From: Planctomycetia bacterium
GTDB lineage: Bacteria; Planctomycetota; Planctomycetia; Pirellulales; UBA1268
DNA: 33,673 nucleotides
Direction: 5' to 3'
Assembly (NCBI GenBank): GCA_009919445.1
Contig: RGBY01000003.1
Span: forward strand, 1-33,673
The position numbers and the translations under genes were made by a program. The notes beneath the pieces were generated by a model. That model saw only the letters and a list, made by a program, of their open reading frames with translations. It ran no database searches and was not told the origin of the DNA. Every line of letters begins with the position of its first letter. Position 1 is the stretch's first letter. Shown here piece by piece: positions 29,201-33,325 of the stretch.

Positions 29201-29961
29201 AGAGAGGTCAGGCCTCCGAAGCGTCGTTCCCGAGACTGATAGGCAGCGATTGCCTGATCGAGGTGCGTGGTGGTGAATTCAGGCCAGGCAGCCGGTGTGA
29301 CCCAGAGTTCAGCGTAACTGATCTGCCAGAGGAGGAAGTTGCTGACCCGCATCTCACCGGCGGTTCGAATCAGCAGATCTGGGTCTGGCATACCGGCTGT
29401 TTCAAGGTGAGCGGCGAAGCTAGCCTCGTCAATCGTATCAGGTTCACGCTCTCCGGCGGCTACCTGCTGAGCCAGGCTGCGGGCAGCAGCAGCAATTTCA
29501 GCTCGTCCCCCGTAGTTGATGGCAAGACAGAGACGCATGCCGCTGTTTCCGGCACAGAGCGAGATGGTTTCATCAATGGCGGCCAGGGTCGCTGCCGGGA
29601 GCGGCGTCCGGTCGCCGATCATGGCGAGTTGAATCTGTTCCCGGAGGAGCAGGTCGCGCTCTTCGATCATGTACTGCTTCAGAAGCAGCATGAGGAAGTC
29701 GATTTCCTGCTGCGGACGCCGCCAGTTTTCGCTCGACAGGCAATAGAGGGTGAGCTGCTCGATGCCGAGTCTGGCTGCATGCTCAGTGACCTGACGAACA
29801 CTTGTGACCCCCTGTTGGTGGCCTTCGATGCGGGGAAGGTCACGCTGCTGGGCCCAGCGGCCGTTGCCATCCATGATGATGGCAATGTGCCGTGGCAAGA
29901 CGGCGGCAGAGCCGGTCGAACTGGTCTGGTGATGAGGCAGGTCTGCGGTGGAAGACTTCAC
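29197..29961 (-). CDS. uppS: isoprenyl transferase (undecaprenyl diphosphate synthase)
   Basis: 'PRHIAIIMDGNGRWAQQRDLPRIEGHQQGVTSVRQV', 'LTLYCLSSENWRRPQQEIDFLMLL', 'DPDLLIRTAGEMRVSNFLLWQISYAELWVTPAAWPEF'. A GTG at 29961 gives a 4-nt overlap with the purA stop; the track ORF start is 29997. Confidence 0.93.
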   Translation of the reverse strand: MKSSTADLPHHQTSSTGSAAVLPRHIAIIMDGNGRWAQQRDLPRIEGHQQGVTSVRQVTEHAARLGIEQLTLYCLSSENWRRPQQEIDFLMLLLKQYMIEERDLLLREQIQLAMIGDRTPLPAATLAAIDETISLCAGNSGMRLCLAINYGGRAEIAAAARSLAQQVAAGEREPDTIDEASFAAHLETAGMPDPDLLIRTAGEMRVSNFLLWQISYAELWVTPAAWPEFTTTHLDQAIAAYQSRERRFGGLTSL

Positions 29962-31307
29962 ACCGTGGCCTGTTCCTGCTGCGGGTTTGGAGGGCATGGT
30001 GCGGTTGCCGGGAACCCTTCACGGAAAATGGTTTGCGCGCGATCGGGACCGACTGAGACAATTGACACAGGTCGGCCAAGAAGTTCTCCGATGCGATCGA
30101 TGTACCGCCGGGCATTGACGGGCAGGTCAGCCTCACGACGAACATCAGTGAGTTCCTCTGGCCAGCCAGGCAGGGTCTCATAAATGGGCTCTGCCTCTTG
30201 AAGATCTTCAATCTGACTGGGGAAGCGATCGACCACCTCTCCTCTGATGCGGTAGGCGGTGCAGATTTTCAGTTCCTCGAGCCCACCGAGCACGTCAAGG
30301 AGCATGACGGCCAGTTCATCAACACCGGAGAGCCGCGACGTGTATCGGGTGGCGACGGCATCAAACCAGCCACAGCGACGCGGGCGTTGGGTGACCGTGC
30401 CAAACTCACGGCCTCGCTGCCGTAGGTGTTCGCCGATGGCGTTGTCCTGTTCGGTGGGCAGGGGGCCACCGCCCACCCGGGTGGAATAAGCCTTGATCAC
30501 ACCGATGACCCGGTTGATCCACCTGCCCGGCACGCCAGACCCGCTGGCGACGCCGACTCCGGAGGAGTTGCTGCTGGTAACAAACGGAAAAGTGCCATGG
30601 TCGATATCGAGTAACGCGCCCTGGGCTCCCTCAAACAAGAGCGGCCGTCCAGTTTCGGCAGCATCAAGAAGGAAATTTGTGGTTTCTCCGACATAGTCTC
30701 GCAGCCGTTCGGCGTAGCCACAGTACTGCTGGAAAACGGCGTTTCGATCGAGGTCAAGTTTAGGCATCTCGCCTGGACGTGACGCCTCGAGGAACCGCTG
30801 TTTCACATCGAAGACATGATCGAACGTCTCGCGGAAGGTGGGGCGATAGAGGTCGCCCAGCCGAAAGGCCAGGGAGCGTCCCACCTTGTCCCGGTAGCAG
30901 GGGCCGATCCCCCGGCCTGTTGTTCCGATCGACTCTCCGCTGGAGAGGCTGCCGTTTAAGATCGCGTCTTCGGCCATGTGCCATGGAAAGACAACATGGG
31001 CCCGGTCGCTCAGCCGAAGTTTGCCAGCCACCGTCACGCCACGGCCTTCAAGCATGTCGATCTCACCGATCACGCTTGCCGGATCGAGCACGACGCCACC
31101 GGTGACCACGCAGGTGACGCCATCGCGGAGGATGCCGCTGGGAATCAGGGAGAGCTTCCAGGTCTCACCGCCGGAAACCACGGTGTGGCCAGCGTTTGCC
31201 CCACCCTGGTAGCGGACCACGATCTCGTGATCTTCGGTGAGGATGTCGACAAGTTTTCCCTTGGCTTCATCCCCCCACTGCAAACCGACAACGCAGGTAC
31301 CGGGCAC
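29958..31307 (-). CDS. purA: adenylosuccinate synthetase
   Basis: 'CVVGLQWGDEAKGKLVDILTEDHEIVVRYQGGANAGHTVV', 'IGTTGRGIGPCYRDKVGR', 'FEGAQGALLDIDHGTFPFVTSSNSSGVGVASGSGVP' and 'VGGGPLPTEQDN'. Confidence 0.95.
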   Translation of the reverse strand: MPGTCVVGLQWGDEAKGKLVDILTEDHEIVVRYQGGANAGHTVVSGGETWKLSLIPSGILRDGVTCVVTGGVVLDPASVIGEIDMLEGRGVTVAGKLRLSDRAHVVFPWHMAEDAILNGSLSSGESIGTTGRGIGPCYRDKVGRSLAFRLGDLYRPTFRETFDHVFDVKQRFLEASRPGEMPKLDLDRNAVFQQYCGYAERLRDYVGETTNFLLDAAETGRPLLFEGAQGALLDIDHGTFPFVTSSNSSGVGVASGSGVPGRWINRVIGVIKAYSTRVGGGPLPTEQDNAIGEHLRQRGREFGTVTQRPRRCGWFDAVATRYTSRLSGVDELAVMLLDVLGGLEELKICTAYRIRGEVVDRFPSQIEDLQEAEPIYETLPGWPEELTDVRREADLPVNARRYIDRIGELLGRPVSIVSVGPDRAQTIFREGFPATAPCPPNPQQEQATV

Positions 31308-31572
31308 GTCGAGGCCCCTCTCTTCTTCAGAAGACGAATCATGCGGGGCGGTGACCGAACCGCCAAAACCATATGCCTGTTGAGTCTAAAACCAGCCGTT
31401 GGAGGGTCAAGCGGAGGCCGGCAGGACCGGCTGCCATGCCGGTCGGTGGTTCCTGTCGGGAATTCTGCGGCAGGCACTGGAGTGGGCGGCCCCGGGCGGT
31501 AGGATCGTGGGAGATGCGGCTGGCAGACCGGCTAGGCTGCCCCTCACCCCTCGCTGGGATGGTCCGAATACG

Positions 31573-32518
31573 ATGGCAAAACGCGGCACCGGGCAGGTCT
31601 TTCATGTGGCGGATGAGGCAGCTGGGCTGACGCTGGCAGCCTATCTGCGGCAGCAGATTCCAGAGACAAGCTGGGCGACTGCAGAAAAACTCGTGCGGGC
31701 CCGTCGCGTGACCATTCATGGCAATCTCTGTCGCGATGCTGCTCGGAGGCTGCAGGCGGGCGAGGTGGTCAAACTGCTCGACATTCCTGTTGCGGCCCCG
31801 CCCGGCCCCCGGGACGTGCACATCGTCTATCTCGACGAGTCCGTTGTGGTGGTCGACAAGCCCTCTGGCATCACCACCACGCGTCATCACGAAGAGGCAG
31901 GCTGGCCAAAGCGTCGGCGGCAGCTTCAGCCCACACTCGATGAGATGCTGCCGATCGTGATTGCCCGCTATCTCGACCGGGGCAAAAAAAAACGACCGCA
32001 CCCTGACCAGCCGACCGCGCCACGGCGGACGACGCCGGTACGGGCGGTGCATCGAATCGACCGTGAGACCAGCGGCCTCCTGGTCTTTGCCCGCACCGTT
32101 CCAGCCGGCCGCAGGCACAATCATCTCGCATCTCGTGCGTGACCGTGGGGATGGCCGTCGGGGCTCGTCGCCGGATGGCCACGGGAAACGGGCGGTGACG
32201 CATGTGCGACCGATTGAGCACTTTGGCGATGCCTACACCCTTGTTGAATGTCGGCTAGAAACCGGTCGGACCCATCAGATCAGAATTCATCTTGCCGAGA
32301 GCGGTCACCCAGTATGTGGCGAGCGGGTCTATTCGGCTCCCGCCAAAGTTGAGGCCGAGGATCGGTCCGGAGCCCGCCGAGTGGCCCTCCATGCTGCCGA
32401 ACTCGGGTTCATCCACCCGGTATCGGGTGAGATGGTGCAATACAGTTCGCCGCTACCGAACGATATTCGCAAATTGCTTGACCGGCTGGCGGCCAGCCAT
32501 GGGCGGCATGAAGCCTAA
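31573..32518 (+). pseudogene. RluA-family rRNA/tRNA pseudouridine synthase, disrupted by an internal out-of-frame deletion near 32100
   Basis: Frame 1 carries an S4-like N-terminus and 'VHRIDRETSGLLVFARTVPA' (motif II), then reads into a stop at 32142. Frame 2 from about 32106 carries 'AGTIISHLVRDRGDGRR...KRAVTHVRPIEHFGD...VECRLETGRTHQIRIHLAESGHPVCGERVY' to the TAA at 32518. The roughly 25-residue connecting region expected between them is absent. Confidence 0.82.
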
Positions 32519-32587
32519 ACATCAGGCCTAAAGGGGCCCGCCGCCACGGCTTGGGGCAATTCTGTTACGTTCGATAGCCTCGCTTCC

Positions 32588-33166
32588 ATGGGAATCGTGA
32601 GGGGAATAGTTGCCTGCCTGGGCCGGTTCATGATCGCGACCATTTTTCTGGTGAGCGCCCTGGGCAACAAGATCGTCAGATTCAATGCGGTGGCTGAGTT
32701 AATGGCAAGCAAGGGCATGCCGCAGACACCTGTCCTCGGCGTGCCAGCCCACAAGCTACTGCTTGTCGGGGCCATTGTGTTTCTGATTCTTGGTGGACTC
32801 TCTGTGGCAGTGGGCTACAAGGCCCGGGTCGGCAGCCTCATGCTGCTGATTTTTCTCGCAGCAGCGACCTTCTTCTTTCATGATTTCTGGAATGCTGAGG
32901 CTGAGCAGCAGCCAACTGAAATGATTCAGTTTTTGAAGAACCTTTCACTGGCGGGGACGATGCTGTTCCTCATTGCCAATGGAGCCGGGCCGGGCAGTCT
33001 CGATCAGCGGCAGGCAGGCAAACCGCGTTGTGCGGCACTGCCTCCCCAGGCCGATCAGCTGGCTAGCCTCGGCAGCCGAACACCACTGCCGGCAGATGGC
33101 GGTGGTACCGATCTGCCAACAAGCCAGACGCCTCCTGCCGACGCTGCTGCAGGGATGTCTTCCTGA
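32588..33166 (+). CDS. DoxX family membrane protein with low-complexity C-terminal tail
   Basis: 'GRFMIATIFLVSALGNKI', 'LLLVGAIVFLILGGLSVAVGYKARVGSLMLLIFLAAATFFFHDFW' and 'QFLKNLSLAGTMLFLIANG' give the four-TM DoxX pattern. Confidence 0.87.
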   Translation: MGIVRGIVACLGRFMIATIFLVSALGNKIVRFNAVAELMASKGMPQTPVLGVPAHKLLLVGAIVFLILGGLSVAVGYKARVGSLMLLIFLAAATFFFHDFWNAEAEQQPTEMIQFLKNLSLAGTMLFLIANGAGPGSLDQRQAGKPRCAALPPQADQLASLGSRTPLPADGGGTDLPTSQTPPADAAAGMSS

Positions 33167-33244: not shown

Positions 33245-33315
33245 AGCTACCCGGCTAGGATTCGAACCTAGACAAAGGGAACCAAAATCCCTTGTGCTAC
33301 CGTTACACCACCGGG
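33245..33315 (-). tRNA. tRNA-Gln (anticodon UUG)
   Basis: The minus strand reads TACCCGGTGGTGTAACGGTAGCACAAGGGATTTTGGTTCCCTTTGTCTAGGTTCGAATCCTAGCCGGGTA plus discriminator G. The acceptor stem TACCCGG/CCGGGTA is perfect, the anticodon loop is TTTTGGT, the T arm is TAGGTTCGAATCCTA, and no CCA is encoded. Confidence 0.95.
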
Positions 33316-33325
33316 TATCGCTCGC

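Follow-up and report, generated by a model that had tools for sequence, protein, structure and literature searches.

An RluA-family pseudouridine synthase gene in a planctomycete draft genome lacks 74 nt at a single internal point, a loss that removes a conserved block with an active-site tyrosine and divides the remaining coding sequence between two reading frames. Judged from the sequence, the gene in this form cannot make the enzyme. As the explanation, a real deletion, very recent or confined to the strain level, is slightly favoured over an assembly fault. The window, that is, the whole 33,673-nt stretch of DNA analysed, is contig C113 of a draft of 2,999,119 bases in 626 contigs, estimated to be 81.6% complete, and the relatives used for comparison are planctomycete metagenome-assembled genomes with titles such as Planctomycetaceae and Pirellulales. 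The features concerned are the following:

29958..31307, minus strand: purA (adenylosuccinate synthetase), the intact, divergent neighbour
31573..32142, plus strand: 5' fragment of the rluA-family pseudouridine synthase gene, with the N-terminal region and catalytic motif II (HRIDRETSG)
32107..32113, plus strand: deletion junction GGCCGCA, placed by the interval in relatives and by the switch in codon usage
~32108..32518, plus strand: 3' fragment in frame 2, with the remainder of the catalytic domain (ETGRTHQIRIHLAESGHP...) and the normal stop
32135..32137, plus strand: GTG that is in frame with the 3' fragment and adjoins the frame-1 stop (GTGCGTGA), a candidate start
32588..33166, plus strand: gene for a DoxX-like membrane protein, downstream of the synthase gene

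The 5' fragment reads in frame 1 as synthase sequence up to HRIDRETSGLLVFARTVPA, retains the catalytic aspartate of motif II (HR[IL]D) as HRID, and is 66-72% identical to the proteins of eight congeners over residues 1-179; beyond the junction it runs through about 11 out-of-frame codons to a TGA at 32140-32142. Frame 2 takes up the synthase sequence from about 32108 (AAGTIISHLVRDRGDGRR...ETGRTHQIR...) and carries it, at 69-77% identity to the congeners, to the C-terminal end GRHEA at 32518. The Pfam domain PseudoU_synth_2 (PF00849) is accordingly matched in two pieces, at profile positions 2-67/68 and 88/89-151 of 152, leaving some 20 positions absent; both fragments score above the cut-off of 26.8 bits (46.3 and 45.3 bits), and the catalytic domain of the window gene is interrupted by a change of frame at 32107-32113. 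The initial annotation had placed motif II in frame 1 and its continuation in frame 2, as is confirmed here (31573-32142, then ~32108-32518), and had expected the switch near 32095-32110, at the right edge of which it was found.

The size of the gap follows from the distance between the HRID and ETGR motifs. Of the 97 relatives in which it was measured, some of them the same gene taken from two collections, 86 have exactly 94 codons, or 282 nt (the main set comprises 68 distinct relatives). The other eleven, eight with longer intervals and three distant chlamydial proteins with 92 codons, all hold the block that is missing from the window gene. The initial annotation had estimated a loss of about 80 nt, 2 mod 3, to be sized against relatives, and that comparison (282 versus 208 nt in the window) gives 74 nt; this length, likewise 2 mod 3, explains the gap as well as the change of frame. 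Its judgement that a simple indel would be inadequate is borne out by the length of the loss and by the conserved block within it. The junction lies between the codons for PA, ending at 32106, and GT, starting at 32114; a homology-free Viterbi reading of codon usage, trained on the other genes of the window, switches frame at 32107/32108. By this reading of the sequence the 74 nt are lost at one point within GGCCGCA, the exact breakpoint being ambiguous without an intact allele. A run of nine A lies at 31984-31992, within the synthase's variable linker, where indel errors would be expected and none is seen; a one-base indel in this run was considered as the cause of the break and rejected, the frame being identical on both sides.

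What has been lost is a block with the consensus RILAEQFRxHTTxRRYLAxxVGRV. The roughly 25 missing residues include nine positions that are invariant in the alignment with the 68 distinct relatives, among them the tyrosine of the R-x-Y (R-R-Y) motif, downstream of the catalytic aspartate, which all 68 possess; the absence of about 25 residues with the motif IIa tyrosine, noted at the outset by comparison with RluD-type proteins, holds against the family. In RluB the corresponding tyrosine is positioned at the target base, and its replacement in the Tyr140Phe variant leaves about 3% of activity (PMC3919597), which marks the residue as important but not strictly essential. An active enzyme would nevertheless not be expected from the window gene, in which the frame is broken and some 25 residues are gone as well. 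These losses bear directly on the idea of a functional split enzyme or a programmed frameshift, in which both fragments would be made, by restart at the GTG at 32135 or by frameshifting near 32108, and would work together: the GTG adjoins the frame-1 stop and both fragments keep conserved sequence, but a split or frameshifted product would still be without the block, its nine invariant positions and the active-site tyrosine, and no relative has a split gene, so that this explanation appears very improbable. The GTG itself is probably an incidental possible restart.

Comparison across the family shows how exceptional the break is. The initial annotation had allowed for relatives with the same split, and none occurs among the 67 other genomes of the family that gave a strong match, every one of which has an open frame of at least 281 codons from stop to stop without an internal stop; the break is therefore not a matter of chance. 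In the eight congeners with the gene, a single open frame of 345-351 codons encodes the protein. In those whose loci were compared, the purA, rluA-family and DoxX-like genes (29958-33166 in the window) are kept together, with purA as the same neighbour and the DoxX-like gene in the same order. Similarity of the DoxX-like protein to its congeners spans approximately residues 1-145, its tail not being conserved, and a tRNA-Gln gene (anticodon TTG) lies on the minus strand at 33246-33317, near the contig end.

No second genome of the species was found. The nearest relative by purA (genome G009, 90% identity, versus 80-83% for congeners with a full-length purA) has neither the 5' part of purA, nor the synthase gene, nor the close DoxX neighbour, and its contig C54 begins inside purA, with codon 54 at base 1. 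An independent loss of the gene in this genome was considered and set aside, because with purA truncated at the contig start and DoxX absent an assembly gap is the simpler account, and the genome thus provides no evidence of gene loss. That one lineage of the genus might be losing this RluA-type synthase, otherwise conserved throughout the family, with G009 also lacking a detectable copy and one RNA pseudouridine having become dispensable there, seems very unlikely.

Outside the gap the gene is undamaged. None of its 105 near-invariant residues is changed, a near-invariant column being one in which at least 97% of the 68 distinct relatives share one residue; at the same 105 columns, 31 of the relatives themselves show no difference and the others 1-7. 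This agrees with the initial description of the remainder as undegraded and fits an event of very recent date; an older, decaying pseudogene was rejected on this ground. The 25 other gene calls scanned in the window are all single, unbroken open frames matching known families, and a survey of codon usage over the window and 20 sampled stretches of the genome, covering about 122 kb of coding sequence, found no other frame switch that resembled a broken gene; the candidates in L153, L157 and L172 had, on reading, the look of ordinary gene ends or noise. Together, the undamaged remainder and the lack of other breaks speak against a generally error-rich assembly as well as against an old pseudogene.

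There remain the two alternatives that the initial annotation had offered jointly, a recent pseudogene or a loss in assembly, and the 74-nt gap in an otherwise undegraded gene supports them as a pair. If the deletion is real, at least some of the sampled cells, and not the assembly alone, would have the purA/rluA-family/DoxX locus of this genus with 74 nt (2 mod 3) lost in one internal piece from the synthase gene. This inactivating loss would remove the active-site tyrosine block and shift the frame, so that translation would end about 11 codons later, at 32142. If the break is instead an artefact, the gene would be intact in the organism, and its 74 bases would have been dropped when the assembler or scaffolder fused two contig ends that happened to share a short overlap. 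Draft assemblies do contain strain mixtures and joins made on very short overlaps, and this account, to which we assign a substantial probability somewhat short of even, draws on the near-universal presence of the intact gene in the family, which would make its loss unusual and counts against a real deletion, and on the complete absence of decay elsewhere in the gene. The fragmentation of the draft into 626 contigs, the proximity of the junction to the contig end (1.6 kb) and the contig break of G009 at the same locus, which hints at a region that may be hard to assemble, point in the same direction.

Against an artefact stand the clean junction, in a window with no N anywhere, the lack of a second frame break elsewhere in the window or in the sampled contigs, and the failure to find at the junction any long repeat, of k-mer length, by which a k-mer assembler could have collapsed 74 nt; the first and last of these speak against a simple repeat collapse. 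A repeat at the junction was rejected as the cause of such a collapse, since nothing more was found there than a weak inverted repeat (32069-32115; 15-nt arms, 80% complementary, 17 nt apart), which covers the junction with its right arm and could be due to chance. Neither the missing piece nor a second copy of the segment was found elsewhere in the assembly.

For practical purposes, automatic annotation will report the gene as two fragments or as a pseudogene, and the case has little importance beyond annotation. Should the deletion be real and fixed, a modification enzyme that the whole family otherwise retains would have been lost here; should it be an artefact, it would caution against reading gene loss into breaks of this sort in draft genomes.

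With respect to known systems, the fragments contain the HRIDRETSG and ETGRTHQIR motifs of the RluA family (PF00849; TIGR00005), and the nearest characterised relative, well studied and with a solved structure, is RluD, followed by RluC, RluA and TruC. An intact congener is covered along its entire length by a TIGR00005 match of 192.3 bits (cut-off 192.7), matches the RluD chains 1v9f, 1qyu and 1prz with E values of 1e-31 to 1e-35, and falls below the NCBIfam equivalog cut-offs for RluD (144 versus 351), RluC (98 versus 378), RluA (88 versus 286) and TruC (89 versus 328). By these profile scores it is an RluA-subfamily protein, just at the TIGR00005 cut-off, and not an equivalog of any of the four. 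Unlike RluA-family enzymes, the window copy is without about 25 residues and a continuous reading frame. It resembles recent bacterial pseudogenes that arise from a short internal deletion in having a single frame-disrupting deletion and a conserved remainder, and differs from them in coming from a draft metagenome-type assembly. Nothing in it is new in kind, and whether it is a deletion or an assembly error, the case is an ordinary one.
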